Shown here: positions 5,876 to 36,020 of the stretch, piece after piece
How the letters are laid out: the number at the start of each line of letters is the position of its first letter
Position numbering within the stretch: position 1 is the stretch's first letter
Source: Alistipes sp.
GTDB taxonomy: Bacteria; Bacteroidota; Bacteroidia; Bacteroidales; Rikenellaceae
Length of the DNA stretch: 36,136 nt
Direction of reading: 5' to 3'
Assembly (NCBI GenBank): GCA_017502025.1
Contig: JAFVVS010000008.1
Coordinates: 1-36,136 of the forward strand
The notes under the pieces: generated by a model
Seen by the model: the letters and a program-made list of their open reading frames with translations, nothing else
Databases searched by the model: none
Told to the model about the DNA's origin: nothing
Made by a program: the position numbers and the translations under genes

Positions 5876-6688
5876 ATGGAGCAAAAGAGCGATAATAGAG
5901 AAAAAGAGCAGCAACAACCCCCTCGACAGCGCAGGCAGAGACTTCGTTTGCCATTCGATAATCGCAGGGAGGACCCTGTAAGTTGGATATACGACAACCG
6001 AGTAGGTTTGTGCGTAACCGTCATCGTATATCTGGTCTTTGCCATAGTCTTCGTGTCGGCAAAAATCAGCTCCTCGAAGCGTGCTGTAAATGAGACGATG
6101 TATATCGACCTGGGCGAGGTGGAGCTCGTATCGGAGGAGCTCGAACGCCTCAAAGAGGAGGTGCGCCGAAAGAGCGATATCGATTGGAAGTCGATTCGCA
6201 ATCTCTCCTCGAATGAGAATGCCTTGAACGAGAATCTCGAAGACGAGAAGGGTACCGATGTGTCGGAGTTGAACGCTGCTGCCGAGGCGGTCGAAAAGGA
6301 GCGCAGAGCCAATCAGGAGGCATACGAGCGAGGTCTGCGTGAGGCGAATGCCATAGGCGAAAATCGCAAATCGGGCGAGGGTGATGCCGAGCGCAAAGAC
6401 TCCAAGCGCAAGGGTAGTGTGACGGTGAGCTTCTCGTTCAAAAATCCTGTCCGATATAGCCGCCATTTGGTCAAACCTGCATACCGCTGCGAGGGTGGTG
6501 GCGAGGTTGTTGTATCGGTGGTGGTAAATCAGCGTGGCGAGGTTATCTCGGCGGTGGTTACGAGTGGTGGCGATGAGTGTATGCGCCAAACGGCTGTCGA
6601 GTCGGCTCGCAACTCACGCTTCGACATAAACAATAACGCTCCTGCCAAGCAACAAGGAACGATAACTTATATCTTTATTCCGCAATAG
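5876..6688 (+). CDS. TonB-family energy transducer-like protein
   Basis: A 270-residue inner-membrane protein: basic Gln/Arg-rich N-terminus (1-40), one membrane span at about 43-62 (VGLCVTVIVYLVFAIVFVSA), a charged probably helical stretch (about 75-190, rich in Glu/Lys/Arg), and a C-terminal TonB-like domain (about 200-270) with GGEVVVSVVVNQRGEV and the closing ITYIFIP strand. TonB proteins carry proton-motive energy from the ExbBD complex to outer-membrane receptors; no exbB/exbD is beside it. The spacer lacks the usual Pro-rich repeats, so it may belong to a TonB/TolA-like subgroup. The stop codon lies in the loop of a perfect 10-bp hairpin. Fairly sure of the fold, unsure of the partner. 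Confidence 0.8.
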   Translation: MEQKSDNREKEQQQPPRQRRQRLRLPFDNRREDPVSWIYDNRVGLCVTVIVYLVFAIVFVSAKISSSKRAVNETMYIDLGEVELVSEELERLKEEVRRKSDIDWKSIRNLSSNENALNENLEDEKGTDVSELNAAAEAVEKERRANQEAYERGLREANAIGENRKSGEGDAERKDSKRKGSVTVSFSFKNPVRYSRHLVKPAYRCEGGGEVVVSVVVNQRGEVISAVVTSGGDECMRQTAVESARNSRFDINNNAPAKQQGTITYIFIPQ

Positions 6689-6697
6689 CGGAATAAA
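6674..6697 (+). other. Stop-centred inverted repeat of the TonB-like gene
   Basis: TTTATTCCGC (6674-6683) and GCGGAATAAA (6688-6697) pair perfectly around a 4-base loop; the TAG stop is 6686-6688. There is no T tract, so it is not a classical terminator. Confidence 0.85.
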
Positions 6698-6698
6698 A

Positions 6699-6733
6699 TA
6701 GTTGAGAGTTTAGAACGAAGAGTTGAGAGTTAA
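6699..6733 (+). repeat. Degenerate GTTGAGA heptamers
   Basis: Interrupted GTTGAGA units between the TonB-like gene and the phospholipase gene. Confidence 0.65.
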
Positions 6734-6747
6734 ATAGCTTTTTGTAT

Positions 6748-7596
6748 ATGCGTAAAGTTTTGGCAATAGTATTCGTTATGCTCTGTTTTGCCGTATCGGC
6801 AAAGCAGACCGACTCGCTATCGCTCAATAAAAAAGATAAAAATCTCTCCACTCTCAACTCTCCACTCTCAACTCCAAAGAGCCAATATCCCGTAATCGGA
6901 ATGTGGAAGCAGAACTATATGGTGACGGGCTTTGCTACCAACCACCCTGTGTCGCAATACTCCTCGGATATAAAATTTCAGTTGAGTTTGGCGTTGCGAC
7001 TGTGGAATATCAATGGCAAGGTTGATTTTCTTGCAACCTACTCGCAACGAAGCGTTTGGGATGTCTATCAGAAGTCGTGCCCCTTCCGTGAGACGGCATA
7101 TAACCCCGGCTTTTGGGTGGCGTGGCAGACGAGCGAAAAGGTGCGTTTGCTCTTCGCTATCGAGCACGAATCGAACGGTATTGGACTCGAAAGCGGGCAA
7201 TCCCGCTCATTCAACTACGCTACCGTGGCTTGTCTTTACGAGCCGACTGCCCATTGGCGATTGGGTGCAAGGGCGTGGTATGGCTACTTCTTTCACGATG
7301 AGGATATAAATCAGAAGTACTTTCGTTATCGTGGCGTGATGCAGTTGTGGGGTACATTCCACACCCTCAATGACCGTTTTTCGGTTACGGCACTCGTAAA
7401 TCCGACCGTGACTTTCGCCCGCTACAATGTGCAACTCGAAGCGTCGTGGCGAATGGCAAAGCGAGGCGATTGGTTGCCCTGTCTGTTCGTGCAGTACAAC
7501 TACGGCTACGGTGAAACAATGATAGACTACGATAAGTTGCATAGCAAAATACGCATCGGTATCTCGCTGATGAACAACAAACTAAATCTATATTAG
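6748..7596 (+). CDS. pldA: Outer-membrane phospholipase A (PldA/OMPLA)
   Basis: A 282-residue outer-membrane beta-barrel phospholipase that hydrolyses phospholipids reaching the outer leaflet. ATG 6748 is preferred; a TTG six bases earlier is in frame but adds nothing. Residues 1-18 are a signal peptide (ending VSA). The catalytic signature is clear: H140 and S142 in EHESNG, and N156 in SRSFN, matching the His-Ser-Asn triad of OMPLA. Further family motifs are YSQRSVWDVY and PFRETAYNPGF. Between signal peptide and barrel, residues 32-42 are encoded by a heptamer array (CTCTCMA), so a change of one unit would shift the frame. It lies 59 bases after the TonB-like gene and may be co-transcribed. 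Confidence 0.88.
   Translation: MRKVLAIVFVMLCFAVSAKQTDSLSLNKKDKNLSTLNSPLSTPKSQYPVIGMWKQNYMVTGFATNHPVSQYSSDIKFQLSLALRLWNINGKVDFLATYSQRSVWDVYQKSCPFRETAYNPGFWVAWQTSEKVRLLFAIEHESNGIGLESGQSRSFNYATVACLYEPTAHWRLGARAWYGYFFHDEDINQKYFRYRGVMQLWGTFHTLNDRFSVTALVNPTVTFARYNVQLEASWRMAKRGDWLPCLFVQYNYGYGETMIDYDKLHSKIRIGISLMNNKLNLY
6845..6875 (+). repeat. Heptamer array inside pldA coding sequence
   Basis: About four CTCTCCA/CTCTCAA heptamers in frame, encoding STLNSPLST-type residues just after the signal peptide. The same repeat family is otherwise intergenic in this window. Confidence 0.85.
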
Positions 7597-7700
7597 TTGA
7601 GAGTTGAGAGTTGAGAGTTGAGAGACGAAAGACGAGAGACGAAAGACGAGAGACGAGAGACGAGAGACGAGAGGAACGGAAAACGGAAAACTGAGAACTG
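7597..7700 (+). repeat. Heptamer arrays (GTTGAGA, GACGAAA/GACGAGA, CGGAAAA)
   Basis: Three successive arrays with a 7-bp period between pldA and the antiporter gene: GTTGAGA (to ~7622), GACGAAA/GACGAGA (to ~7674), and CGGAAAA. Confidence 0.9.
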
Positions 7701-7702
7701 AG

Positions 7703-7784
7703 AGCGCACTCCTTAAACTCCCTAAATTCCCTAAATTCCTTAAACTCCTTAACAAGGTTTGCGCCTTGACAAGGGTTGGAGTTC
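7703..7784 (+). repeat. Composite dispersed element, copy 2
   Basis: AGCGCACTCC (from 7703), then CTCCTTAAA/TTCCCTAAA 9-mers, then the core at 7759-7784 (TTGCGCCTTGA ... GGAGTTC), and an A-rich tail up to the next start codon. The GGAGTTC end faces the antiporter gene. Confidence 0.85.
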
Positions 7785-7811
7785 AGAAAACTAAAAAAAA
7801 GACAAACTATA

Positions 7812-9302
7812 ATGATAAATGCAGAACACTTCCTACTGATTGGAGCCATACTACTCTTTGTGGCGGTTATGGCGGGCAAGGTGGCGTACCGTTTTAACGC
7901 CCCTGCGCTCTTGCTCTTTTTGGCGGTAGGTCTGTTCTTTGGCTACGATATTCTCTCGTTCAACTCACCCGAGCTGACCCAATTTATCGGTATGGTGTCG
8001 CTCTGTATCATCCTCTTCTCGGGTGGTATGGATACCAAATTCTCGGAGATTAAGCCCGTGCTTGCCGAGGGTATAACCCTCGCTACGGCAGGCGTTTTGA
8101 TGACCGCTATGTTGCTTGGCGGTTTTATCTATCTGGTGTCGCCTTGGCTTGGCGTGGAGTTGTCGTTCCCGCTGGCGCTGCTTCTCGCATCGACCATATC
8201 TTCAACCGACTCGGCATCGGTCTTTTCGATTTTGCGTACTCGCCGACAGGGCTTGCGTGAGAATTTGCGACCATTGTTGGAGTTGGAGAGCGGCTCGAAC
8301 GACCCTATGGCATATATTCTGGTTATTCTGCTTATCAGAATGCTCGGTGGCAATGGCGAAGAGATTAGCGCAGGCGGTGCCGTGCTTATGCTGGTGGTAC
8401 AGATGGCAGTCGGAGCGTTAGTGGGCTACCTCTTTGGTCGTGCTTCGGTGTGGATTATCAACAAAATAAATATCAACAACGCATCGCTCTACTCGGTGTT
8501 GCTGTTGGCGTGTGTATTCTTCACCTTCTCATTCACCTCGCTCATCAAGGGCAACGGCTACTTGGCGGTCTATATTGCAGGTCTTATCGTGGGTAACAAC
8601 AAACTCGTGAATAAGCGCACCGTGACCACCTTCTTCGACGGAATAACCTGGTTGTTCCAGATTATTATGTTCCTTATGCTAGGTCTGTTGGTTACGCTCG
8701 AAGATGCTCTGCAACCGCAAATTCTGCTCCTTGGCGCAGTGGCAGGCTTGTTCCTGATGTTTGTAGCACGCCCTGTGGCGGTGATTTTGGCACTATCGCC
8801 CTTCCGTAAGCTATCGAAGAAGGCTCGTGGCTACATCTCGTGGGTGGGTCTGCGAGGTGCTGTGCCGATTATCTTTGCGACCTATCCGTGGGTGGCAAAA
8901 ATCGAGGGTGCCGAGGTTATCTTCAATGTGGTATTCATTATGACCATCCTCTCTCTGGTGGTGCAGGGTACCACAGTCAGCAGTATGGCGGAGTTGTTCG
9001 GCTTGGCATTCACCGAGAAGGAGAGTAAGTTCGAGAGTGCCTTGCAGGATAAGGTGAAGTCCGCCTTCACCGAGATTGCCGTAACCGAGCAGATGCTTTC
9101 GGCAGGAAATACGCTTAACAAGGTGGCTCTGCCCGACAATACTCTGGTGGTGATGGTGTGTCGTGATGGCGACTACTTCGTGCCGAAGGGTGGTGCTGAG
9201 TTGCACTTGGGCGATAAGTTATTGATTTTGTCTGATAGAAATGACGAACTCGCAGCCCACTACAAGGAATACGGTGTAGAGGATATAATTTCGTTCAAGT
9301 AG
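7812..9302 (+). CDS. CPA1-type K+/H+ (or Na+/H+) antiporter, NhaP2/CvrA-like
   Basis: A 496-residue inner-membrane exchanger. The ATG at 7812 is the start; the upstream extension to a TTG at 7776 lies in the dispersed repeat and is rejected. Residues 1-390 carry about 12 hydrophobic spans of the Na_H_Exchanger fold, including FSGGMDTKFSEIKPV, LLASTISSTDSASVFSIL and LELESGSNDPMAYILVILL, where the ND pair marks the CPA1 ion site. Residues about 400-490 form a soluble TrkA_C/RCK-type domain (LPDNTLVVMVCRDGDYFVP, LGDKLLILSD) typical of NhaP2, which binds a regulatory ligand. Likely exports K+ or Na+ in exchange for protons. The specific cation cannot be read from sequence. Confidence 0.9.
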   Translation: MINAEHFLLIGAILLFVAVMAGKVAYRFNAPALLLFLAVGLFFGYDILSFNSPELTQFIGMVSLCIILFSGGMDTKFSEIKPVLAEGITLATAGVLMTAMLLGGFIYLVSPWLGVELSFPLALLLASTISSTDSASVFSILRTRRQGLRENLRPLLELESGSNDPMAYILVILLIRMLGGNGEEISAGGAVLMLVVQMAVGALVGYLFGRASVWIINKININNASLYSVLLLACVFFTFSFTSLIKGNGYLAVYIAGLIVGNNKLVNKRTVTTFFDGITWLFQIIMFLMLGLLVTLEDALQPQILLLGAVAGLFLMFVARPVAVILALSPFRKLSKKARGYISWVGLRGAVPIIFATYPWVAKIEGAEVIFNVVFIMTILSLVVQGTTVSSMAELFGLAFTEKESKFESALQDKVKSAFTEIAVTEQMLSAGNTLNKVALPDNTLVVMVCRDGDYFVPKGGAELHLGDKLLILSDRNDELAAHYKEYGVEDIISFK

Positions 9303-9322
9303 GGACAAATCCTTTCTAAACC

Positions 9323-9352
9323 TTTGTAAGTAGAATAAATTCCCTATCTTTG
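9323..9352 (+). promoter_or_regulatory. Promoter of upxY-rmlC-rmlD
   Basis: TTTG (9323-9326), 18 bases, then TATCTTTG (9345-9352): a full Bacteroidetes housekeeping promoter. The -7 box ends only 4 bases before the ATG at 9357, so transcription would begin at or next to the start codon. Confidence 0.8.
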
Positions 9353-9356
9353 CATT

Positions 9357-9896
9357 ATGGAGTTGTGCGAAACGGAGAAGAGTTGGTTTGCTATGCGTGC
9401 GACCTATGGTCGTAACCTTATGGCGCAGAGGGTGCTCGAAGTGCAGAAAATCGAGAGCTTTGTGCCTATGCGCAAGCGTACCGTCAAGCTCGGTCGTCGC
9501 ATCAAAACCGACACTATTCCCGTGGTGCGAGATTTGATTTTCGTGCTTGCCGAGCGAGATGCAATTCAGGAGGCAAAGGGCAAAATACCATATCTCCACT
9601 ACATAACACGCCCCGAGGGTGGCAGAAATATCCCTGTGGAGGTACCTATCGAGCAGATGCAGAGTTTTATCGCTGTCTGCAACGAGATGGATGACAAAGC
9701 TGACCTGCTCTCGGGTGAGGAGGCACACTTCGAGGTGGGCGAGCGTGTGGAGGTTGTCAGCGGTGCATTCAAGGGGTGCCGAGGTAGCCTCGTGAAGATT
9801 GAGGGCAAACGCTCGAAACGCTTTGTAGTGGCTATTGACGGCATCATAGCAGTGGCGGTGTCGGGCATTACAGCAAACGATATAAAACACATTTAG
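9357..9896 (+). CDS. UpxY-type NusG paralogue (transcription antiterminator)
   Basis: A 179-residue NusG-family protein. The N-terminal NGN domain begins with the family signature WFAMRATYGRN (residues 10-20) and includes FVPMRKRTVKLGRR; a KOW motif is in the C-terminal domain (FEVGERVEVVSGAFKGCRGSLV, about 123-144). UpxY proteins in Bacteroides bind RNA polymerase and prevent early termination in their own surface-polysaccharide operon. The stop codon abuts the ATG of rmlC, so the three genes form one transcript. Here only two sugar-nucleotide genes follow and no glycosyltransferases, so the target could be this short operon or a distant locus. The mRNA may be almost leaderless. Confidence 0.87.
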   Translation: MELCETEKSWFAMRATYGRNLMAQRVLEVQKIESFVPMRKRTVKLGRRIKTDTIPVVRDLIFVLAERDAIQEAKGKIPYLHYITRPEGGRNIPVEVPIEQMQSFIAVCNEMDDKADLLSGEEAHFEVGERVEVVSGAFKGCRGSLVKIEGKRSKRFVVAIDGIIAVAVSGITANDIKHI

Positions 9897-10448
9897 ATGA
9901 ATATTATAAAGACAGCGATTGAGGGTGTGGTGGTCATCGAGCCACGAGTATTCGAGGATGAACGAGGTTACTTCTTCGAGTCCTTCTCCGAGCGTGAGTT
10001 CTCGGCGGAGGTGGGGGAGTACCACTTCGTGCAGAGCAACGAGGCGAAGTCGTCGTATGGCGTGGTGCGAGGTCTGCACTTTCAGCTTCCCCCTCACGCC
10101 CAGAGCAAGTTGGTGCGTGTGGCAAAGGGTCGCATCTTGGATGTGGCGGTCGATATTCGCCGTTCGTCGCCAACCTTTGGCAAGTATGTCGCTGTGGAAC
10201 TCTCGTCGGAAAATCATCGCCAAGTGTTTATCCCTCAGGGCTTTGCGCACGGCTACTCGGTATTGAGCGAGGAGGCGGTCGTGGAGTATAAGTGTGACAA
10301 CTACTACGCACCCGAGAGCGAGGGCGCAGTGGCGTGGAACGATGCCGACCTCGCCATAGATTGGCAGATTCCGGCAGATAAAATCATCCTCTCGGCAAAG
10401 GATAAGGCGCACCCTTCGCTTGCCGAGTGCAAAACATTGTTCGAATAG
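9897..10448 (+). CDS. rmlC: dTDP-4-dehydrorhamnose 3,5-epimerase
   Basis: Third enzyme of dTDP-L-rhamnose synthesis (also named rfbC): epimerises C3 and C5 of dTDP-4-keto-6-deoxyglucose. 183 residues, normal length. Cupin fold with the hallmarks ERGYFFESF (22-30), VRGLHFQ with catalytic H61, GRILDVAVDIRRSSPTFGKY (78-97) and FIPQGFAHGYSVLS (111-124). Starts immediately after the upxY stop and ends 2 bases before rmlD, so translation is probably coupled. rmlA and rmlB, needed for the first two steps, are not in the window. Confidence 0.95.
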   Translation: MNIIKTAIEGVVVIEPRVFEDERGYFFESFSEREFSAEVGEYHFVQSNEAKSSYGVVRGLHFQLPPHAQSKLVRVAKGRILDVAVDIRRSSPTFGKYVAVELSSENHRQVFIPQGFAHGYSVLSEEAVVEYKCDNYYAPESEGAVAWNDADLAIDWQIPADKIILSAKDKAHPSLAECKTLFE

Positions 10449-10450
10449 CT

Positions 10451-11296
10451 ATGACGATATTGGTAACGGGTGGAAATGGGCAGTTGGGCTGCTCGCTGCG
10501 CTTGGCGACGGCCGAGAGCCCGCATCGCTACATCTTTACCGATGTCGAGGAGTTGGATATAACCTCTGCCGAGGCAATTGATGCGTTTTTCCAAAGCGAA
10601 CGCCCCGATGTGGTGGTCAATTGCGCCGCCTATACTGCGGTAGAGAGGGCAGAGGAGGATGAGGTAAGAGCCGACCTTATAAACTATAAGGCGGTGGCAA
10701 TATTGGCTGCTGCTTGTAAACGCCACGACGCTACGCTTATCCATATTTCGACCGACTATATCTTCTCGGGCGAGGGCTACACGCCATACACCGAGGAGGT
10801 CGCTCCTGCACCGATTAATGCCTACGGTCGCACCAAACTCTCGGGCGAGAGGGCGGTCGAGGAGTCGGGCTGTCGCCACATTATTCTGCGCACCTCGTGG
10901 CTCTATTCGGAGTTTGGAAACAACTTTGTCAAGACTATGCAGTCGCTAATGACAACTCGCTCGGAGGTGAGGGTTGTAGCCGACCAGATCGGCACACCGA
11001 CCTATGCGGGCGACCTGGCTGCGGCGATTACCTATATTATAAATAGCAACCAACTCGCCAAATGTGGTACCTACCACTACTCGAACGAGGGAGCGTGCTC
11101 GTGGTACGACTTTGCGTGCGAGATTGCCCGATTGAGCGAGAACAACTGCAAGGTAACACCTTGCACTACCGAGGAGTATCCCACCAAGGCGCAACGCCCC
11201 CGCTACTCGGTGCTCGACAAGAGCAAATTCATTTCAACCTTCGGCATCACTATCCCCGAGTGGCACGAGTCGCTTGCGCAAATGATAAAACGATAG
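10451..11296 (+). CDS. rmlD: dTDP-4-dehydrorhamnose reductase
   Basis: Final step of dTDP-L-rhamnose synthesis (rfbD): NAD(P)H-dependent reduction of the 4-keto group. 281 residues from the ATG at 10451; an in-frame upstream ATG at 10427 lies inside rmlC and is less likely. SDR fold: GGNGQLG (7-13) binds the nucleotide; HISTDYIFSG (98-107) contains the catalytic Thr/Ser region; YGRTK (125-129) is the YxxxK catalytic pair. The C-terminal substrate domain has TYHYSNEGACSWYDFA. Last gene of the upxY operon; it faces the CoA-transferase gene across a short convergent gap. Confidence 0.95.
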   Translation: MTILVTGGNGQLGCSLRLATAESPHRYIFTDVEELDITSAEAIDAFFQSERPDVVVNCAAYTAVERAEEDEVRADLINYKAVAILAAACKRHDATLIHISTDYIFSGEGYTPYTEEVAPAPINAYGRTKLSGERAVEESGCRHIILRTSWLYSEFGNNFVKTMQSLMTTRSEVRVVADQIGTPTYAGDLAAAITYIINSNQLAKCGTYHYSNEGACSWYDFACEIARLSENNCKVTPCTTEEYPTKAQRPRYSVLDKSKFISTFGITIPEWHESLAQMIKR

Positions 11297-11395
11297 AGAA
11301 TTTAGGGAATTTAATGAAATTAGGGAGTTTAGAGAGTTTAGAGAAAATTCACTAAATTCACTAATTTCCCTAAACTCCTTAAATTTTCTTTGATG
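11297..11395. repeat. TTAGGGA-type imperfect array
   Basis: GAGAATTTAGGGAATT-like units on one side and ACTAAATTC/CCCTAAACTCC units on the other face each other and could pair into a long imperfect stem. No 26-bp core is present. Confidence 0.55.
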
Positions 11396-11404
11396 CTAAA
11401 AGCA

Positions 11405-11432
11405 ACAAAGGCTTCCCGAAGGAAGCCTTTGT
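11405..11432 (-). terminator. Terminator between convergent rmlD and CoA-transferase
   Basis: ACAAAGGCTTCC (11405-11416), CGAA loop, GGAAGCCTTTGT (11421-11432): a perfect 12-bp stem. The minus-strand side is followed by TGCTTTTAGC, so it best serves the CoA-transferase gene, but it can act both ways. Confidence 0.8.
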
Positions 11433-11436
11433 GATT

Positions 11437-11464
11437 ATATGAAGAAATCGTTATTTCTTCATAT
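11437..11464 (-). other. Stop-centred inverted repeat of the CoA-transferase gene
   Basis: ATATGAAGAAAT (11437-11448) and ATTTCTTCATAT (11453-11464) pair perfectly around a CGTT loop; the stop codon occupies 11451-11453. Confidence 0.85.
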
Positions 11465-12764
11465 AGCTTTTAATATAGTGGTGGTGCGAGCCATATCTAT
11501 TGAACGCTGCCTCGTCAAGGGCCTCCTGAGCTGATGGGTGAGCCACCGAGATGATAAGGCGAGCACGCTCCTGCAAGCTCTTGCCATACAAATCAACAGC
11601 ACCATTCTCGGTTACGAACCAGTGAATGTGGTTACGGGTAGTAACAACACCTGCACCCTCGGTCAAGACATCCGAAATCTTCGATACACCCTTGTTAGTG
11701 ATTGAAGGCATAGCGATAATAGCCTTACCGCCCTTTGACAACGATGCACCATAGATGAAGTCGATCTGACCACCTACGCCCGAGTAGAACTTGCGACCGA
11801 GCGAGTCAGCGCAAACCTGACCTGTGAGGTCAACCTGCAATGCCGAGTTGATAGCGGTTACACGGTCGTTCTTTGCGATGATGAATGGGTCGTTGGTGTA
11901 GCCAACATCCATCATCATAACGCTTGGGTTGTCGTCGATGAAGTCGTAAACCTTCTGCGAACCCATCAAGAAGGTCGAAACCATCTTACCCTTGTCGATA
12001 TTCTTTGCCTCGCCATTGATTACGCCCTTCTCAACGAGTGGGAGAACGCCATCGGCGAACATCTCGGTGTGGATACCGAGGTTCTTGTGGCCGCCGAGCT
12101 GTGCGAGTACGGCGTTAGGAATAGCACCGATACCCATCTGCAAGGTTGCACCATCCTCGATAAGACCTGCGCAGAGGTTACCAATCTTAACCTCGGTCTC
12201 GTTTGGCTCCGAGAAGTGAGCCTCTTCGAGTGGCTGGTCGTCTTGCACGAAGATATCAATCTTCGACGAGTGAATCATAGCATCACCCCACGCACGAGGT
12301 ACATACTTGTTGATAACTGCGATTACGGTGTCTGCGCACTCAACAGCTGCGAGGGTAGCATCTACCGAAGTACCGAGCGAAACATAGCCGTGCTTGTCAG
12401 GTGTCGAAACCTGAATCATTGCAACATTGCAAGGCACTGCACCCGAGCGATACAACTTCTGGGTCTCGCTGAGGAAAATTGGAATATAGTCAGCATAGCC
12501 GCTCTGGGTAACCTTGCGGACATTGCCACCTACGAAGAACGAATCCAACTGGAATACGCCCTCGAACTCTGGGTCTGCATACGGTGCAGGACCCTCGGTG
12601 TGGAGGTGGTGGATGTGAACATCCTTCAACTCGCCAGCACGACCTCTCTCGCACATAGCCTTAATCAAACACTGCGGTGCCGAAGCAACCGACGAAAGGT
12701 GGATGTGGTCGCCCGACTTAATTGCTTTGACGGCCTCTTCCGGAGTTACAAACTTAATTGCCAT
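11451..12764 (-). CDS. Acetyl-CoA hydrolase/transferase family CoA-transferase
   Basis: A 437-residue cytoplasmic CoA-transferase of the family that includes 4-hydroxybutyrate and butyryl-CoA:acetate CoA-transferases, whose length it matches. The active-site glutamate is E234 in GIHTEMFADG, which forms the glutamyl-CoA thioester. Other conserved segments are GIGAIPNAVLAQLG (211-224), SVDATLAAVE and the C-terminal EGAGVVTTRNHIHW. It would move CoA between short-chain acids in anaerobic fermentation; the exact substrates cannot be assigned. It lies 91 bases after infB in the same direction but is separated by a hairpin and a heptamer array, so co-transcription with infB is uncertain. Its own end has two hairpins. 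Confidence 0.85.
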   Translation of the reverse strand: MAIKFVTPEEAVKAIKSGDHIHLSSVASAPQCLIKAMCERGRAGELKDVHIHHLHTEGPAPYADPEFEGVFQLDSFFVGGNVRKVTQSGYADYIPIFLSETQKLYRSGAVPCNVAMIQVSTPDKHGYVSLGTSVDATLAAVECADTVIAVINKYVPRAWGDAMIHSSKIDIFVQDDQPLEEAHFSEPNETEVKIGNLCAGLIEDGATLQMGIGAIPNAVLAQLGGHKNLGIHTEMFADGVLPLVEKGVINGEAKNIDKGKMVSTFLMGSQKVYDFIDDNPSVMMMDVGYTNDPFIIAKNDRVTAINSALQVDLTGQVCADSLGRKFYSGVGGQIDFIYGASLSKGGKAIIAMPSITNKGVSKISDVLTEGAGVVTTRNHIHWFVTENGAVDLYGKSLQERARLIISVAHPSAQEALDEAAFNRYGSHHHYIKSYMKK

Positions 12765-12792
12765 TTTACTTAAAGTTTTTAGGTTATTTGTA

Positions 12793-12842
12793 TTTTAATT
12801 TTGAATTCTGCATTTTGAATTTTGCATTCTGCATTTTGCATT
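12793..12842. repeat. ATTTTGA/ATTTTGC heptamer array
   Basis: About seven heptamers with a strict 7-bp period between infB and the CoA-transferase gene. Confidence 0.9.
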
Positions 12843-12843
12843 G

Positions 12844-12870
12844 GTTAAGCGCAAATTATTTGCGCTTAAC
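12844..12870 (-). other. Stop-centred inverted repeat of infB
   Basis: GTTAAGCGCAAA (12844-12855) and TTTGCGCTTAAC (12859-12870) pair perfectly; the 3-base loop is exactly the TAA stop codon of infB. No T tract follows. Confidence 0.88.
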
Positions 12871-15537
12871 TTCAACCTGCTCGTATCCCTCGATGATATC
12901 GCCAACCTTGATATCGTTGTACGACTCGATGTTCAAACCGCAATCCATACCCGAAGTAACCTCCTTTACATCGTCCTTGAATCGCTTCAACGAGCCAAGA
13001 CGACCGGTGTGGATAACGATACCGTCACGAATTACACGAATTGGGGTGTGGCGGGTAATCTTACCCTCACGCACAACACCTCCGGCGATAGTTCCAACCT
13101 TCGAGATGCGGAATGTTTCGAGTACCTCTACCGAGCATACAATCTCCTCCTTCATCACAGGCTCCAACATACCCTCGATAGCATCCTTGATATCGTTGAT
13201 AGCGTCGTAGATGATAGAGTAGAGACGAATCTCGATCTCCTCCTGCTCGGCAACCTTGCGAGCCGAAGCCGAAGGTCGTACCTGGAAACCTACGATGATG
13301 GCGTTCGATGCAGCAGCCAACAATACATCGCTCTCCGAAATCTGACCTACCGCAGCGTGGATAACATTCACCTGAACGCTCTCCTTCGACAACTTGATGA
13401 GCGAGCCCGACATAGCCTCAACCGAGCCATCCACATCACCCTTAACGATGATATTCAACTCCTTGAACGAGCCGATAGCGATACGACGACCAATCTCGTC
13501 GAGTGTCACGTGCTTCTGAGTCATAATACCCTGCATACGCTGCAACTGCTCACGCTTGTTGGCAATCTCACGAGCCGAGCGGTCATCCTCCATCACATTG
13601 ATAGAGTCTCCCGCCTGTGGCGCACCGTTCAATCCGAGCAACTGAACAGGTGTCGAAGGACCTGCCTCCTTAACCTTGTTACCATTCTCGTCGAACATAG
13701 CCTTGACACGACCTGTGTAGATACCCGAGAGGATAACATCACCCACACGGAGTGTTCCCTCCTGTACGAGTACGGTCGATACATATCCACGACCCTTATC
13801 CAAGGTCGACTCGATGATAGTACCCTTAGCCTTTTTGTTAGGGTTAGCCTTCAAGTCGAGCATCTCTGCCTCCAACAACACCTTTTCGAGCAACTTGTCG
13901 AGGTTAAGACCCTGCTTTGCCGAAACATCCTGACTCTGGTACTTACCACCCCAATCCTCCACGAGCAAGTTCATCTGCGAGAGCTGCTCCTTGATGTGGT
14001 CAGGGTTAGCCTGTGGCTTATCAATCTTGTTGATTGCAAATACCATAGGAACGCCAGCCGCCTGGGCGTGGTTGATAGCCTCCACGGTCTGCGGCATCAC
14101 ACGGTCGTCGGCCGCAACGATGATAATCGCCACATCGGTAATCTTCGCACCACGGGCACGCATTGCGGTAAATGCCTCGTGACCCGGGGTATCGAGGAAG
14201 GTGATCTTCTGACCGTTGAGATTTACCGAGTAAGCACCGATGTGCTGGGTGATACCTCCCGCCTCGCCAGCGGTTACATTGGTCTTACGGATGTTGTCCA
14301 AGAGCGATGTCTTACCGTGGTCAACGTGACCCATTACGGTTACGATTGGTGGGCGTGGGAGCAAATCCTCGGCACTATCCACCTCGTCGTCGTTGATAGC
14401 CTCCTGAATTTCGGCCGATACGAACTCTACGGTGAAGCCGAACTCCTCGGCAACCACTACCAAAGCCTCGGCATCGAGACGCTGGTTAATCGACACCATC
14501 AAACCGAGATTCATACAAGCCGAGATAACCTCCATAGGCGAGATATTCATCATTGTTGCCACCTCACTTACGGTTACGAACTCGGTAACTTTGAGAATCT
14601 TCTGTTCTGCTGCCTCCTGCTCGAAAGCTTCGTTCATACGCTCACGAATCTCGTCACGCTTCTCACGACGATACTTTGCGCCCTTATTCTTTGCACCCTT
14701 GGCAGTCAAACGAGCCAAGGTATCCTTCACCTGCTTCGATACCTCCTCGTCGCTCACCTCTGGTCGAACAACAGGCTTTGGCTGTGGCTTCTGCTTGTTC
14801 TTCTTGCCACCACCCTGATTCTGCTGGTTCTGGTTGTTCTGCTTGTTATTGTTGAACTTATTGTTCTTGTCGCCCTGCTGGTTGTTGCCACCCTTCTGAG
14901 CGTTGTTCTGCTGCTTGTTGATATCAACCTTCGCCTTCTCCAAACGCTTGCGGTGACGCTTGCCACCGGCTACCATACCCGAAACATCCATTGTTCCGAG
15001 AATCTGCGGACCTGCAAGGGTTGGTGCCTCGGTAGCACGGAAAACCTCGCTCTTCTTTGGCTCCTCTGCAACAACAGGCTCTGCCTTTGGTGCCGGCGCA
15101 GGCTTAACCTCCTCCTTCGGAGCTTCAACCTTTGGCTCAACCTTCGGAGTCTCCACCGCCTTAGGCTCAGCCTTTGGTGCAGGTGCCGACTCCTCCTTCT
15201 TCTTTGGCGAGAGGTCAATCTTGCCGAGAACTTTCGGCTGAACTATCTCCTCCTTAACCTCGATAGTGCGCTTCTCCTCCTTTGGTGCTACCTCCGGCTC
15301 GATGCTTACCGACGACTTCTTATTCATCTTCTCTCGTACAGAGTCGAGCTCGTTGCCACTTGGGCGATTTTTGCCAAACTCCTTCTCTACGATGGCGTAG
15401 GTGTCGGCATCAATCTGCGTATTTGGCGACGAATCGACCTCGATGCCCTTGCGGTGCAAGAAGTCAGTGATGGTGTTCAAACCAACATTAAACTCCTTTG
15501 CAACCTTAATAAGGCGTAACTTCTTTTCGTTTCCCAT
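12856..15537 (-). CDS. infB: Translation initiation factor IF-2
   Basis: GTPase that places initiator fMet-tRNA on the 30S subunit and promotes subunit joining. 893 residues. N-terminal IF2_N-like helical segment (1-55: [21 protein letters not shown]), a long charged linker rich in Pro/Lys/Glu (90-170) and an Asn/Gln/Gly/Lys low-complexity stretch (about 205-260), a second IF2_N module (about 315-375), then the G domain: GHVDHGKT near residue 402, DTPGHE near 448 and NKID near 501. The beta-barrel and C-terminal tRNA-binding domains follow. Third gene of the conserved rimP-nusA-infB run; 81 bases separate it from nusA. The stop codon is the loop of a perfect hairpin. Confidence 0.97.
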
Positions 15538-15572
15538 TATATCTTTCTTTACTTATTCAACAAAATACCTTT

Positions 15573-15606
15573 AATTGTCAATTGTCATTATCAATTGTCA
15601 ATTAAT
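15573..15606. repeat. ATTGTCA heptamer array between nusA and infB
   Basis: Units of CAATTGT/ATTGTCA with a 7-bp period; because the unit is partly self-complementary the array can fold. It is followed by GTAGCC-GTA-GGCTAC (15608-15622), a short hairpin over the nusA stop. Confidence 0.8.
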
Positions 15607-15618
15607 TGTAGCCGTAGG

Positions 15619-16854
15619 CTACTCCTCCTCGAACTCTGCTTTGAGAATATTGATGATATTCTCGGCCTGCTCGATTTCGAGGTCGGCACGCTTTGCCAAC
15701 ACCTCTGCGCTCATTTCGAGTACGCTCTTTGCGGTGTCGCAACCCATATTGTGGAGCGTGTCGATAATCCAACCCTCGATCTCGTCAGAGAACTCGGTGA
15801 GTGCCACATCCTCCTCGTCAAGCTCACGGAATACATCGATATCGAAGCCTGTGAGCAACTTCGCAAGGCGAATGTTCAAACCGCCCTTACCGATAGCCAA
15901 CGAAACCTGGTCTGGTTGGAGATATACCTGTGCGGTATTCTTCTCCTCATCAACGGTAATCGACGAAATCTTTGCAGGTGCCAATGCACGCTGAATAAGC
16001 AACGAAGTGTTCGAGGTGTACTGGATGACATCGATATTCTCGTTGCGCAACTCCTTAACGATGGTGTAGATACGAGCACCCTTAACACCTACGCAAGCAC
16101 CTACCGGATCAACACGGTCGTCATACGACTCTACGGCAACCTTAGCACGCTCGCCTGGGATACGGGCAATCTTCTTGATGGTGATAAGTCCGTCGTTAAT
16201 CTCGGGTACCTCCTGCTCGAACAACCTTTCGAGGAAGAGATTTGCGGTACGAGAGAGAATTACTCGTGGCTTGTTATTTACCATCTCTACGCTCTTGATG
16301 ATAGCCTTGATGGTGTCGCCCTTGCGGTAGAAGTCGTTAGGAATCTGCTCGTTCTTTGGCATTACCAACTCATTCTCATCCTCGTCGAGTACCATCATAT
16401 CACGCTTCCAAACCTGATAAACCTCGCCCGAGATCAACTCGCCAACCTTCGATGTGTAGTCCTCGAAGATACCTGCATTCTCCAAGTCGAGGATGCGTGA
16501 TGCGAGGTTCTGACGCAACGACAATACCGCACGACGGCCGAATGCCGAGAATGGAATCTCGTCGGTATACTCATCGCCAACCTCGAACGAGTCGTCGATC
16601 TTCTGCATATCCGAGAGCTTAATCTGCGATACCTCATCCTCGAAATCCTCGTCGGCTACAACCTCACGGTTACGCCAAATTTCGAGGTCGCCCTTGTCGT
16701 CGTTGATGATGATGTCGAAATTCTCGTCGGTGCCATACTGCTTCTGCAATGCGTGGCGGAATACATCCTCCAACACACCAATCATTGTTGCTTTGTCGAT
16801 GTTCTTCAACTCCTTGAACTCGGCAAAATTGCTGATAAGATTAAGATTGTTCAT
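15619..16854 (-). CDS. nusA: Transcription termination/antitermination factor NusA
   Basis: RNA-polymerase-bound factor acting in pausing, termination and rRNA antitermination. 411 residues. N-terminal polymerase-binding domain (1-125, with KATMIGVLEDVFRHAL), S1 RNA-binding domain (about 135-200, ISGEVYQVWKRDMMVL), KH1 (DPVGACVGVKGARI) and KH2 (SLAIGKGGLNIRLAKLL, about 325-341), and a short acidic C-terminal region rather than the two long acidic repeats of gamma-proteobacteria. Second gene of rimP-nusA-infB. The 197-base gap from rimP is unusually long for this operon and is filled by a dispersed repeat and heptamers. A 6-bp hairpin spans the stop codon. Confidence 0.96.
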   Translation of the reverse strand: MNNLNLISNFAEFKELKNIDKATMIGVLEDVFRHALQKQYGTDENFDIIINDDKGDLEIWRNREVVADEDFEDEVSQIKLSDMQKIDDSFEVGDEYTDEIPFSAFGRRAVLSLRQNLASRILDLENAGIFEDYTSKVGELISGEVYQVWKRDMMVLDEDENELVMPKNEQIPNDFYRKGDTIKAIIKSVEMVNNKPRVILSRTANLFLERLFEQEVPEINDGLITIKKIARIPGERAKVAVESYDDRVDPVGACVGVKGARIYTIVKELRNENIDVIQYTSNTSLLIQRALAPAKISSITVDEEKNTAQVYLQPDQVSLAIGKGGLNIRLAKLLTGFDIDVFRELDEEDVALTEFSDEIEGWIIDTLHNMGCDTAKSVLEMSAEVLAKRADLEIEQAENIINILKAEFEEE

Positions 16855-16889
16855 TGTCTTTTTTTGTTTGTTTATATTGTTTTGTTTGT

Positions 16890-17050: not shown

Positions 17051-17051
17051 T

Positions 17052-17516: not shown

Positions 17517-17558
17517 ATAGTTGAGTGTTGTTTATTAGTCAATTTTCCTTTACAAAAA

Positions 17559-17581
17559 TGAGGGGACTCACTGTCCCCTCA
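17559..17581 (-). terminator. Terminator-like hairpin in the rimP leader
   Basis: TGAGGGGAC (17573-17581 read on minus) and GTCCCCTCA form a 9-bp stem with a 5-base loop; on the minus strand TTTTTGT follows. It is downstream of the rimP promoter, so besides ending the terminase transcript it could attenuate rimP-nusA-infB. Confidence 0.75.
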
Positions 17582-17606
17582 CCTCGCTCCTCTCTCATTT
17601 CGACTA

Positions 17607-17638
17607 CAAAAGTACACTTATATTTATAAATAACCAAA
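17607..17638 (-). promoter_or_regulatory. Promoter of rimP-nusA-infB
   Basis: On the minus strand: TTTG (17638-17635), 20 bases, TACTTTTG (17614-17607). Both elements and the spacing fit the Bacteroidetes promoter. The leader to the rimP ATG would be about 85 bases. Confidence 0.7.
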
Positions 17639-17662
17639 TTTTTTTATTGTTTTTTTAGCTTT

Positions 17663-19060
17663 TTATCTCACAAACGAAATCCTTGTGCGGAACGAATCTC
17701 TTGTTTCACGCTCGACAATGCCGGTTATAACATCCGCAGCATCGTGCCATCGGTTGGAGTGAAAGGTGCGACGATAGGTGGTGAGGTGGGTGTATAGATC
17801 TCGCCATCGCTGCTGCCAACCATGAGGGAAACGGAGCAGGTGTAGAGCCGTTGCCGAGTTCGAGAGGATGCGGGCCTCCTTGTTGCCCGACTGATGAAAC
17901 CACTCAACCTTTGTTGAGGGTGCCATACGCTGCACGGCACGGGCAAAACCTCGACCTCCGTTGTTGCTCTCGATGGCGGCTGTGCGGGTGCGATTTCGGC
18001 ACAGCATCTCCGCCACCTCTCGCTCCGTAACCTCCATAGGCTCACGGGAATAGACCGCATCGCAGATGTAGATTATACCGTCGGTATCCACCGCATAGCA
18101 GAGTGAGCAGAGATAGTCGTCGCCCGTGTCGGCAGTGTCGGTGTAGTTGCCATAGCGAACAATATCTCGTGGTAGGGTGTCGTACTCGCCAAATGAGTCG
18201 CCATATAGCAACCCTTCACGAGAGGAAGGGTGCCCCTGATACATACACTCAAAGCGTAGGGTGTCGAGGTTGCGCTTCTGTTTGAGAAGGTCGGCGGAGT
18301 GGCGCTCCTCCCACAACGCTTCGCCCGGATTGCGAGGGTCTATCTCGGAGGCCGGCGATGCCTTCAAAGCCTCGAAATTGAGATAGAGCCACTCGTTCTC
18401 GCCAACATCCTCCAAGTCGCTGAAACTCCGCAACTCACGGCACGGCTCCTTGCTCGTAATTGTGCCGATAAGGTCCTCTTCGTGCCAGCGGGTAAAGACT
18501 ATCAACTCACGGGAAAAATTGTGCATTCTGGTGCGTACAACCGAGGTGTACCACTCCCAGCAATTTTCACGAATTATGGGCGAATTTGCCTCCATCGCAT
18601 CCTTGTATAAATCGTCGAGAATGAAGCAATCGACACGGTTGCCCGTAAGCGATCCTTCACGACCCACCGAGAGAAGTGCGCCATCGTGTCCGATAATCTC
18701 CACCTCGTCGGCTGTGCGGATGTAATTTGCAGGTTTGGCACCCCTCTTTATGGTAGTATCGGGGAAGAGTTCGGCATATTCACGGCTCTCCAAAATGCGC
18801 TGTACTCGTCGATTAAATCGGGATGCCAATGAGCCTGAATATGAGGCTATTGCAATGCGCAGATTGGGGTCAAGCCCAAGCATATATGCAGGCAGTAGGG
18901 TGGTGGCTCCTACCGACTTTCCGTGTTGTGGCGGCATAGTTATGATTAGTCGTTTTATAACCCCCTTTGCGAAGGCGTCAAGTACCCGATAATAGACCGA
19001 ATGGAAGGGCTGAATCTCCAAAAACGGATAGATCTCGGTGGCAAATTTTGCGAACTCCAT
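17663..19060 (-). CDS. Phage-type large terminase (TerL), orphan
   Basis: A 465-residue protein with a complete terminase plan. ATPase domain: Walker A MPPQHGKS (42-49), Walker B CFILDDLYKD with D149/D150, and a coupling-type motif TRWHEEDL (190-197). RNase-H-like nuclease domain: acidic residues in YTDTADTGDDY (306-316), E363 in AAIESNNGGRGFA, and D440/D443 in HDAADVITG. TerL proteins pump DNA into phage heads and cut it. There is no portal, capsid, protease or tail gene beside it: the neighbours are a 105-residue gene 3 bases upstream, a divergent S24 repressor, and rimP. Nothing looks decayed. It may be a prophage remnant, a satellite element or a domesticated nuclease. Confidence 0.88.
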   Translation of the reverse strand: MEFAKFATEIYPFLEIQPFHSVYYRVLDAFAKGVIKRLIITMPPQHGKSVGATTLLPAYMLGLDPNLRIAIASYSGSLASRFNRRVQRILESREYAELFPDTTIKRGAKPANYIRTADEVEIIGHDGALLSVGREGSLTGNRVDCFILDDLYKDAMEANSPIIRENCWEWYTSVVRTRMHNFSRELIVFTRWHEEDLIGTITSKEPCRELRSFSDLEDVGENEWLYLNFEALKASPASEIDPRNPGEALWEERHSADLLKQKRNLDTLRFECMYQGHPSSREGLLYGDSFGEYDTLPRDIVRYGNYTDTADTGDDYLCSLCYAVDTDGIIYICDAVYSREPMEVTEREVAEMLCRNRTRTAAIESNNGGRGFARAVQRMAPSTKVEWFHQSGNKEARILSNSATALHLLRFPHGWQQRWRDLYTHLTTYRRTFHSNRWHDAADVITGIVERETRDSFRTRISFVR

Positions 19061-19063
19061 CGG

Positions 19064-19381
19064 CTACTCCTCCTCGATTAAAAAATTGATAAATCGCTTG
19101 AAGTCGAAGTCGTCGAGTATCACTCCCTCTTCGCCCTCGCAGAGAAAGTCCCACCACACTGCCGAAACATCGCAGATTGTGTCGTAGCGCTCGTAGTGGT
19201 TGCGGTAGTCGGGGCGACGACGATAGAGAATAAGCGAGGCTGTCAGACGCAAAATCTCGCCACACGCACCAACCGCTTCGACCACTCCCGTAAAGTAGCA
19301 GGGCGAGAGCAGTCGCCCCTTGATTTCGCTCGCCAAAGCGGCATAATCCTCGTCGGATAGTTTGTAAATAATTGAATTCAT
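19064..19381 (-). CDS. Small protein of unknown function, upstream of terL
   Basis: A 105-residue acidic protein, not recognised. It starts MNSIIYKLSDEDYAAL, has a middle hydrophobic/helical segment (VVEAVGACGEILRLTASLIL, 33-52), aromatic residues (Tyr, Trp) and a strongly acidic end (DDFDFKRFINFLIEEE). No DNA-binding motif, signal peptide or transmembrane segment is evident. It ends 3 bases before the terL start and is therefore in the same transcript. By position and size it could be a small-terminase-like partner or a regulator of TerL, but I see no sequence proof of either. Its promoter region is shared with the divergent S24 repressor. Confidence 0.7.
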   Translation of the reverse strand: MNSIIYKLSDEDYAALASEIKGRLLSPCYFTGVVEAVGACGEILRLTASLILYRRRPDYRNHYERYDTICDVSAVWWDFLCEGEEGVILDDFDFKRFINFLIEEE

Positions 19382-19411
19382 ATTAAAATTTTGTTAGAAG
19401 GTTAATAAAAA

Positions 19412-19456
19412 CTTGTTTTTATAGAAAAAAAAATGTAACTTTGCATTGCAAAGGTA
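19412..19456. promoter_or_regulatory. Divergent promoters with a shared palindromic operator
   Basis: Plus promoter: CTTG (19412-19415), 20 bases, TAACTTTG (19436-19443). Minus -7 box: TACCTTTG (19456-19449). The 15-bp palindrome CTTTGCATTGCAAAG (19439-19453; arms of 7, central T) overlaps both -7 boxes, so one bound repressor could block both transcripts. The minus -33 element is not clear. Confidence 0.7.
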
Positions 19457-19514
19457 ATTCAAAAAATGAATTTTGATACCGAGTTAAGTTCAAAAATTGT
19501 ATAAAAAGATTTGA

Positions 19515-20198
19515 ATGAAAAATATGGGAGAGCGATTAAAACTTATACGCAAGAGTTTGGGTTTGACGCAAGAGCAATTGGCTCAGCGACTTGGCGTCGG
19601 CAAGACCGCTTTGTCGATGATCGAAACGGGCAAGGCACGCCTCTCCACTCGTAATCGAAATATTCTTATTCAAGATTTGAATGTCAATCCTTCGTGGCTC
19701 GAAACGGGCAAGGGCGAGATTTTCAATGCCGACCCGGCTTTGACCGCCTCGTTTGGTCGTGGCTCGGAGATGCAGATGCCGTTGCAGTCGGTGCCGCTCT
19801 ACTCGATAGAGGCTACTGCGGGCTTGGTGCCGTTGTTCGAGCAGCGTGAGCAATGCACTCCTGTAAATTATATCCATATTCCGAACCTTCCGAAGTGCGA
19901 TGGTGCGGTATATGTTGCCGGCGACTCGATGTATCCTTTGTTGAAGAGTGGAGATATCGTGTTGTATAAGCAGTTGCACGACTTGGAGGATATCTTCTGG
20001 GGCGATATGTATCTGCTCTCGATGGATATTGATGGCGAGGAGTATGTTACTATAAAGTATATTCAGCGCTCGGAGCGTGAGGGTTATGTGCGCCTTGTGT
20101 CGCAGAATCCGCACCACGCTGACAAAGATGTGCAGATGAGTCGCATTCGTGCTATTGCGCTGGTGAAGGCGAGCATCCGTATGAACTCGATGAGGTAG
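19515..20198 (+). CDS. XRE-HTH / S24 peptidase repressor (LexA/CI-like)
   Basis: A 227-residue two-domain regulator. N-terminal XRE helix-turn-helix (5-60; GLTQEQLAQRLGVGKTALSMIE), linker, then an S24 self-cleaving domain: probable cleavage bond A102-G103 (EATAGL), nucleophile S138 in VAGDSMYP and general base K181 (TIKYI). The 35-residue gap from bond to serine is like that of LexA and lambda CI. Such proteins repress until RecA filaments trigger self-cleavage after DNA damage. It is divergent from the orf105-terL pair, with a palindrome over both -7 boxes, so autoregulation and damage-induced derepression of terL is the natural reading. It is not LexA itself by HTH type. Confidence 0.88.
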   Translation: MKNMGERLKLIRKSLGLTQEQLAQRLGVGKTALSMIETGKARLSTRNRNILIQDLNVNPSWLETGKGEIFNADPALTASFGRGSEMQMPLQSVPLYSIEATAGLVPLFEQREQCTPVNYIHIPNLPKCDGAVYVAGDSMYPLLKSGDIVLYKQLHDLEDIFWGDMYLLSMDIDGEEYVTIKYIQRSEREGYVRLVSQNPHHADKDVQMSRIRAIALVKASIRMNSMR

Positions 20199-20205
20199 AT
20201 AAAGT

Positions 20206-20390
<185 letters not shown>

Positions 20391-20431
20391 GCAAAACACA
20401 GAAAACAATAGACAAAACAATATATTTTTAA

Positions 20432-23611
<3,180 letters not shown>

Positions 23612-23653
23612 TTTCTTGTGATAAGCCGCAATCTGCGGCACATCGCTAAAAGT

Positions 23654-23703
23654 AATAGTCCTCGGGCTGTACGATTTAGTACTATCCCGAGGACTATTCT
23701 TTT
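23654..23703 (+). terminator. Intrinsic terminator after lacZ
   Basis: AATAGTCCTCGGG (23654-23666) and CCCGAGGACTATT (23686-23698) form a perfect 13-bp stem, with an inner GTAC/GTAC stem, then CTTTT. A smaller GCCGCA-ATC-TGCGGC hairpin precedes it. Confidence 0.92.
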
Positions 23704-23737
23704 GCGATGCACCACATCTCACGACTTCTGACAAGAA

Positions 23738-23855
23738 ATAGTGAGTAGTGAGTAGTTCTTAATCCCTAAACTCCCTAAACTCCCTAAACTCCCTAAATTC
23801 CCTATTACCCCTATTACCCCTATTACCCCTAACGCCCCTAACGCCTCTAATAATT
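23738..23855. repeat. GTGAGTA heptamers and CTCCCTAAA / CCCTATTAC 9-mers
   Basis: Short GTGAGTA array (to ~23757), then CTCCCTAAA units, then CCCCTATTA and CCCCTAACG units directly upstream of the sigma-54 promoter. No 26-bp core is present. No gene is seen between 23612 and 23916. Confidence 0.8.
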
Positions 23856-23861
23856 TCCCTC

Positions 23862-23878
23862 TTGGCACGCACTTTGCT
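23862..23878 (+). promoter_or_regulatory. Sigma-54 (RpoN) promoter
   Basis: TTGGCACG-CACT-TTGCT matches the -24/-12 consensus at every defined position, with 10 bases between GG (23864-23865) and GC (23876-23877). Expected transcription start is near 23889, 28 bases before the lipoprotein ATG. Confidence 0.82.
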
Positions 23879-23916
23879 CCTTCATCGGATGGTTTAACAC
23901 ATAAAAGATTTACACG

Positions 23917-24483
23917 ATGAAAAAGTTTATCCTTTCGTTTGCCGTTGTGGCACTTGTTTTTGGTGGTCTGTTGGCGTGTGGTGAGCAGACAAAGTGGAAC
24001 CGTGAGGAGCGTCAGGCTATGCGCAACCTCCTGCGTGATTATCGCAAGATGGTCTATCTGAACGATTTGAGCGAGGCGGAGTATATGCTCTTTACCGACG
24101 ATGTCATAGCCTCGGTCGAGGAGGCGTACCCCGTCTATACGACATTTGTCGAGATGCCTGCCGTGAATGATACGGTGCAGGTATATGTCGTGACGACCAT
24201 CGTCGAGCAGTTGGCTGCCGATGCCTCGAATATGCGTCACCTCTATCCCTATCGTGACCTCGTGTCGGCAAATATCCTGCCCGATGGTTTGAGTCGAGCG
24301 CAGCAAAATGCCTTCTATCAGTGCTTTGCCAATGCTGTGGATAACACCTACGCAACGCCCGAGCAGCTGGTGAATGCAATAGTTGCCGACACGGTGCAGA
24401 CCTCGCAGATAGCGCAGATGCAGGCGACCTGCGCCAACGAACTCTTCGGCTGGACAATAGAAATCATAGAGGTTGGCAATTAG
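23917..24483 (+). CDS. Putative lipoprotein of unknown function
   Basis: A 188-residue protein with a lipoprotein signal: hydrophobic core then GLLAC, lipidated cysteine at C21. The next residues (GEQTKW) lack a clear inner-membrane retention signal. The mature part is helical and acidic with no family I recognise (REERQAMRNLLRDYRKMVYL; AYPVYTTFVEMPAVNDTVQVYVV). It is monocistronic by appearance: a sigma-54 promoter in front, a 16-bp perfect stem-loop over its stop codon behind. Sigma-54 control means a dedicated enhancer-binding activator must switch it on, so it likely answers a specific signal such as envelope stress or nutrient state. Function unknown. Confidence 0.82.
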   Translation: MKKFILSFAVVALVFGGLLACGEQTKWNREERQAMRNLLRDYRKMVYLNDLSEAEYMLFTDDVIASVEEAYPVYTTFVEMPAVNDTVQVYVVTTIVEQLAADASNMRHLYPYRDLVSANILPDGLSRAQQNAFYQCFANAVDNTYATPEQLVNAIVADTVQTSQIAQMQATCANELFGWTIEIIEVGN

Positions 24484-24498
24484 CCAACCTCTATGATT
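24462..24498 (+). other. Stop-centred inverted repeat of the lipoprotein gene
   Basis: AATCATAGAGGTTGGC (24462-24477) and GCCAACCTCTATGATT (24483-24498) pair perfectly over 16 bp around AATTA; the TAG stop (24481-24483) is in the loop and first arm base. No T tract; it may terminate or stabilise the mRNA. Confidence 0.9.
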
Positions 24499-26609: not shown

Positions 26610-26615
26610 CCACAA

Positions 26616-35687: not shown

Positions 35688-36020
<333 letters not shown>

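Follow-up and report, generated by a model that had tools for sequence, protein, structure and literature searches.

What makes several unrelated genes of one bacterium end in perfect inverted repeats folded around their stop codons? The question is raised by a 36,136-nucleotide (nt) stretch of an Alistipes sp. genome (the window; contig JAFVVS010000008.1 of assembly GCA_017502025.1, here G000, with 2.06 Mb in 151 contigs and 85% completeness), whose coenzyme A (CoA)-transferase is 99-100% identical to those of Alistipes metagenome assemblies from sheep and yak gut. The comparisons described below identify these palindromes as genuine traces of inverted copying of gene ends, found chiefly in one clade of Alistipes. 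As their cause we lean, by a little, towards fold-back template switching in DNA replication, which would write inverted copies of gene ends into the bases behind the stop.

Four genes of the window, mutually unrelated by Pfam, carry such a hairpin. A gene with a weak Pfam TonB C-terminal match (E 0.0004, below the family cut-off; 5948-6688, + strand) ends in 10-bp arms (6674-6683 and 6688-6697, loop AATA, stop TAG at 6686-6688), and infB, which encodes IF-2 (12856-15537, - strand), ends in 12-bp arms at 12844-12870 with the stop TAA (12856-12858) as the entire loop, or alternatively in a 13-bp stem with a 1-nt loop. Both are as the first-pass annotation had described them. The other two it had also placed correctly, with arms 1 bp too short: the acetyl-CoA hydrolase/transferase gene (11451-12764, - strand) has arms of 13 bp, not 12 (11436-11465 instead of 11437-11464), with a loop of 4 and the stop TAA (11451-11453) at the loop, and a small lipoprotein-like gene, for which the Pfam search gave no match (23917-24483, + strand), has arms of 17 bp, not 16 (24461-24477 and 24483-24499 instead of a span of 24462-24498), with a loop of 5 and the stop TAG at 24481-24483. 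The same annotation had stated that a proper T tract is lacking throughout, which is correct for the TonB-like, infB and CoA stop hairpins; the 3' arm of the lipoprotein hairpin ends in GATTTAATT. The CoA stop hairpin directly precedes a 12-bp terminator-like hairpin (11405-11432, - strand) with the tail TGCTTTTAGC. Weaker 6-bp palindromes are also present, as had been noted, at the stops of nusA (15608-15622, - strand) and of a phosphoesterase gene (35619-35634, + strand).

For counting, a stop hairpin was defined by perfect arms of at least 9 nt, a loop of 3-9 and a centre no more than 8 nt from the stop; the chance control was made by exchanging 3' flanks among genes, and stops too close to a contig end were dropped. 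In a 743-kb sample of the window's own genome, with 605 genes called by a simple hexamer model, 11 of 603 stops have a hairpin against 0.48 expected (at most 3 in 60 permutations), and with arms of at least 10 nt there are nine against 0.13. Complementarity of at least 11 nt between coding end and flank occurs in 8 of 349 genes (those remaining of 598 after exclusion of genes with less than 40 nt downstream), compared with 0.2 on permutation and none when coding sequence 60 nt further up is used. Reverse-complement copies of adjacent sequence, such as template switching would leave, are thus found well beyond chance, as the earlier claim held; the own-genome scan found no hairpin with arms of at least 9 nt centred 30-120 nt upstream of stops. 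With hairpins at 4 of its 29 called genes, against 7 of 570 elsewhere in the sample, the window itself is the richer part, and thus a chosen, lucky cluster. The seven hairpins outside it include those of an AraC-type regulator gene (in L042), a P-II-like gene, a thioredoxin gene and an Rnf-Nqr gene, the remaining three lying in L028, L034 and L031; that of L031:14380-14802 is centred at +8 with almost no coding sequence in its arm. The stop codon stands at the loop in the infB and lipoprotein hairpins, and inside the stem in those of the AraC and thioredoxin genes.

The excess extends to other Alistipes. In four genomes (the window's own, G005, G003 and G024) 17 of 885 stops have a hairpin against 0.93 expected, G003 contributing 1 of 85 and G024 3 of 97 (two of these three being one shared palindrome). 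None was found at 270 stops in four genomes of other families in the order (0.3 expected; Fisher p 0.018 for the difference from Alistipes), and 300 kb of E. coli K-12 have one at 260 stops. For four focal genes, picked for having a stop hairpin in the window's genome (with L325 counted as the focal thioredoxin gene), the same gene has a hairpin in 7 of 20 loci from five close relatives and in 0 of 88 loci from other Alistipes, so that these hairpins are a matter of the close clade; the non-focal genes in those loci have none (0 of 41 and 0 of 221, respectively). The CoA stop hairpin is spread wider: the 80 Alistipes loci that surround this gene contain 569 stops, of which 23 carry a hairpin, 14 at the CoA gene, four at infB and five at two other, mostly overlapping, genes. 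In L158, L160 and L174, two convergent genes with a 4-nt overlap have one 9-bp palindrome that covers both stops.

Orthologues provide the direction of the copying. The window and G005 share the infB coding end GTTAAGCGCAAATAA (98% identical tail), which is followed by TTTGCGCTTAAC in the window and by ACGGAAAACGGAAA / ACGGAAAACGG in G005; the whole 3' flanks differ between these orthologues, a difference that may stem from one event or several. The infB stems vary by species, each mirroring its own codons (GTTAAGCGCAAA, GTTAAGCGCA, GTTAAGCGAAA and GTGAAACGCAA), as in GTTAAGCGCA-AGTAG-TGCGCTTAAC (L092), GTTAAGCGAAA-ATAG-TTTCGCTTAAC (L097 and L101) and GTGAAACGCAA-ATAAATC-TTGCGTTTCAC (L105). 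Combined with its own flank, the coding end gives arms of at least 9 nt in 6 of 81 infB and 15 of 82 CoA sequences, against 0.4 and 4.2, respectively, with the flank of another species. The lipoprotein-like gene has a 10-17-bp stem matching its own codons at the same place in the window's genome and in four of five close relatives (the fifth, G073, has no stop stem), with mirrored differences: ATC/GAT in the window's genome, ATA/TAT in G005, ATCGAG/CTCGAT in G065 and GGTGGG/CCCACC in G074. By eye, the Rnf stem has 13 bp in the window's genome (TCA/TGA) and 16 bp in G063 (TCT/AGA, a mirrored change), is visibly decayed in G073, and is absent from G065, G005 and the more distant G046 and G044. 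The thioredoxin stop hairpin is present in the window's genome, G065, G005 and G063, and was not found in G073 or G074. The window's TonB hairpin is the sole stop hairpin with arms of at least 9 nt at this gene among 30 TonB loci scanned, and by this locus scan it and the L042 AraC hairpin are confined to the window's genome. Read against relatives that lack the copy, the infB, TonB, L042 and Rnf gene ends have an ancestral coding arm and a derived 3' arm, and the 3' arm is gained and lost among congeners, with fast turnover within the close clade. The first-pass annotation had suggested reverse copying of the last codons into the bases immediately behind the stop, and this description fits: palindrome-free relatives share the coding end, and the palindromes of each species mirror its own codons.

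Fold-back template switching could account for these features as follows. After copying the gene end, a nascent strand would double back across a few bases located at the stop or behind it, or else across an existing terminator hairpin, pair via a short complement, and extend for 10-20 nt on the last codons as template, which would turn the first post-stop bases into a reverse complement of the end of the coding sequence. Inverted copies placed in the 3' flank would be tolerated; copying in the opposite direction would change the protein. After codon changes the flank would be re-copied by the same process, and the mirroring would therefore be species-specific. The resulting mRNA hairpins would probably be by-products for the most part, nearly neutral in effect, and some may have been taken up as 3'-end structures.

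The CoA gene presents a further, larger structure. In many Alistipes the pairing partner of its HHHYIKS codons lies some 50-80 nt behind the stop, and the resulting outer stem of about 20 bp encloses the terminator. This stem is degenerate in the window, where GCTTTTAGC (11395-11403, - strand) is, judging from relatives, an apparent remnant of the far arm. The motif is present in 92 of 97 sequences (5 were dropped; some assemblies occur twice), and 54 of the 92 have at least 15 of the 21 outer-stem pairs, the other 38 being left out of the tree. On the gene tree of these 54, 62 two-sided changes (55 between Watson-Crick pairs) are counted, against 11 coding-only and 60 flank-only changes, 62 being an upper figure, since changes at neighbouring sites are linked and the tree is not certain. 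As the far arm begins past the U tract, most of it should be missing from the terminated transcript. A conserved convergent neighbour, acting through its own transcript, was considered as a source of the outer stem and rejected: of eight CoA loci, five show no called gene over the next 1 kb, and the other three end before a called gene is reached. In the window a convergent gene ends 154 nt from the CoA gene.

A different account, which we consider rather unlikely, is that the hairpins are selected at the mRNA level: the 3' structure would form once the terminating ribosome leaves and would block 3'-5' exonucleases or mark the cistron end (for example after Rho-dependent termination), with pairing kept up by compensatory changes. 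The strong covariation in the CoA outer stem and the lipoprotein stem is in its favour, as are the excess of hairpins at stops over starts (given below) and the fact that seven of the nine hairpins without a U tract at -10..+10 precede a co-directional gene. In the sense transcript, an RNA helix can accommodate G.U pairs but not A.C pairs, and imperfect stems of at least 10 pairs were therefore compared at 587 stops of the four Alistipes genomes. Stems lying wholly in the flank comprise 53 with G.U and 22 with A.C (2.4 and 2.0 with shuffled flanks), whereas stems at the stop comprise 2 with G.U and 6 with A.C (1.1 and 0.8 with swapped flanks; Fisher p 0.016 for the contrast). The stop stems, few as they are, thus have no preference for G.U over A.C. 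Two-sided compensatory changes do occur, and template switching predicts them too. In addition, the presence of a hairpin varies among species with near-identical proteins (as at TonB and the L042 AraC gene, found in the window's genome alone, and at the Rnf gene), and the far arm of the CoA stem should lie mostly outside the terminated transcript. The lack of a G.U preference (in only eight stems), the turnover and the derived 3' arms together favour inverted copying at the DNA level. Among the suggestions of the first-pass annotation, a template-switch mutation bias therefore gains support from palindrome-free relatives that keep the coding end and from the mirroring of each species' own codons, and selection for an mRNA helix does not; protection of the mRNA or an effect on termination is a possible function, as far as the sequences suggest.

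It is also improbable that the hairpins are intrinsic or bidirectional terminators slid back onto the stop, as the stop-proximal end of the usual range of terminator positions. Hairpins with a U tract do peak at +30..+40 and thin out towards the stop, and the L042 gene (L042:11288-12187) carries CTCTTTTTG in its 3' arm. Against this, the U tract behind the stem is missing in 9 of the 12 hairpins with arms of at least 9 nt at -10..+10, compared with 13 of the 53 at +20..+60; a separate terminator-like hairpin stands right behind the CoA stop hairpin; and several stop stems are A/T-rich. These counts bear equally on the stop itself. The first-pass annotation had staked its case on stop-centred palindromes being enriched over positions 20-60 nt after stops, and taken literally the comparison goes the other way, since terminators sit there and make palindromes commoner. 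With the stop at the loop in some genes and in the stem in others, and hairpins denser at +30, a specific role of the stop codon finds no support. The stop is not clearly special, and seems to be the earliest position at which an arm can change while the protein stays as it is. Chance or an assembly artefact, for which the choice of a dense window could be cited, is very improbable in view of the swapped-flank controls and the species-specific versions in independent assemblies, and so is a mobile insertion, as the 3' arm matches host codons, unlike an inserted element.

Several points weigh against fold-back copying as a near-neutral process. Such a process should leave many decayed palindromes and most of those found are perfect, although the search favours perfect ones and some decayed examples exist (the Rnf gene of G073, and infB of L097 and L099). 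The covariation of the CoA outer stem is of a strength that would usually be taken as a sign of helix selection. The ceiling on the two-sided count has to be borne in mind here, and the swapped-flank contrast of this stem is modest (mean 15.5 of 21 matches with its own flank, 14.0 with swapped flanks). Its count of 4 G.U against 20 A.C (55 against 3 for the terminators at the same loci) was discarded as decisive evidence, because the codons are A/C-rich and confound it; the genome-wide test was used for this reason, and it consists of eight stop stems, three of them extensions of already counted perfect stems. Of the hairpins that lack a U tract, 9 fall in the 1,034 10-nt stop-bins at -10..+10 and 10 in the 1,219 at +50..+100, five of the latter extending into the next called gene; such hairpins are thus about twofold denser at the stop than deeper in intergenic DNA (9/1,034 vs 5/1,219, p 0.19), which may be nothing or may be a pull towards the stop. 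Finally, hairpins with arms of at least 9 nt occur at 5 of 831 starts compared with 17 of 879 stops, and short-loop stems with arms of at least 12 nt in the window's genome lie at nine coding-sequence ends and at no start. A mutation process blind to strand does not predict this scarcity unless there is selection at starts; it is the main fact that needs additional selection, and purging of structure at starts is assumed.

Other repeats occur near gene ends. An interspersed fold-back element of about 130 nt with the core CTCACATACGCCnAAGTATGCTGCG is present twice in the window (about 528-657 and 32863-32989), and the 743-kb sample contains 25 copies of it (L015 near 3081 is one). For about 15 of the 25, the end of a called gene lies 35-55 nt ahead of the core, and many of the elements therefore begin at or just after a stop. 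Their outer arms vary between copies and are still complementary, with two-sided change in 19 of 24 consensus pairs of a structure fitted to the same alignment. In Rfam, none of six sources, the window among them, gave a match at the gathering threshold; the second window copy gave one match below it. In L015:3139-6669 (- strand) the element stands directly after the stop and the coding end AAAATGGAATT is mirrored on its far side, a possible outward extension of the hairpin by copying of host sequence. Tandem heptamer repeats of many different units are found in the window at about 1085-1104, 6710-6735, 12820-12843, 15580-15605, 24499-24520, 26377-26400 and 35690-35715, and in the sample in 69 of 288 intergenic regions of at least 60 nt, with none in the coding control; a link with the hairpins was not established in the own genome (4 of 9 hairpin stops vs 70 of 341 others, p 0.10) or in the four genomes (4 of 13 vs 80 of 480, p 0.25). 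Arrays of the heptamer TAACTGA are reported in PMC4679880, in the part considered here, from Beggiatoaceae, Cyanobacteria and five Bacteroidetes. Between two convergent genes of the window, at about 26440-26570, lie decamer-spaced repeats (CCTCTAACAA and CCCTTAATAG), near a perfect 18-bp hairpin (26615-26654), and the intergenic motif CCCCCTAAATCCCCCT follows soon after several stop hairpins (L039 near 4090, L042 near 11230, L201 near 17890, and L355).

The processes and structures closest to the Alistipes copies are known from elsewhere, and are compared here on the basis of portions of the sources. Monttinen and Loytynoja (2022, PMC8794818) describe template-switch mutations that create, maintain and repair RNA hairpins, one event writing an adjacent reverse-complement copy that gives a perfect stem and can restore pairing; their cases are RNA genes (rRNA, microRNA), whereas in the present bacterial clade the ends of protein genes are repeatedly the source and the first post-stop bases the target. 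Quasipalindrome-associated template-switch mutations in E. coli (PMC7202029) likewise arise at imperfect inverted repeats, which are mutation hotspots, in laboratory E. coli rather than as an evolutionary footprint at gene ends. The coding palindromes of Nematomorpha mitochondria, for which template switching is offered as one possible cause (PMC6649704), are perfect inverted repeats with coding sequence in both arms and lengths to 284 bp, unlike the 9-17 bp and single coding arm seen here. Intrinsic terminators share with the Alistipes stop hairpins a short perfect stem near the gene end, and differ from them in that the latter mostly lack a U tract, have one coding arm and have no G.U preference. 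In the literature on stop-codon palindromes and template switching, judged by titles and abstract openings, we found no description of stop-centred inverted copies, which on this basis appear undescribed.

These gene ends form a series of natural bacterial examples with a known template for every copy, namely the coding end, so that the birth, repair and loss of hairpins can be traced. They also indicate that two-sided covariation near gene ends need not imply a selected RNA structure, and suggest a possible one-step route to new terminators or 3' hairpins. More tentatively, and with some doubt on our part, snap-back copying may be a standing process in the Alistipes clade, forming hairpins in one step, re-mirroring them after codon changes and extending terminators outward, with some of the products serving as 3' ends. 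If so, a single mutational step would make any gene end a perfect mRNA hairpin, and terminators would grow outward by copying the codons that precede them, an example being the roughly 20-bp outer stem around the CoA terminator.

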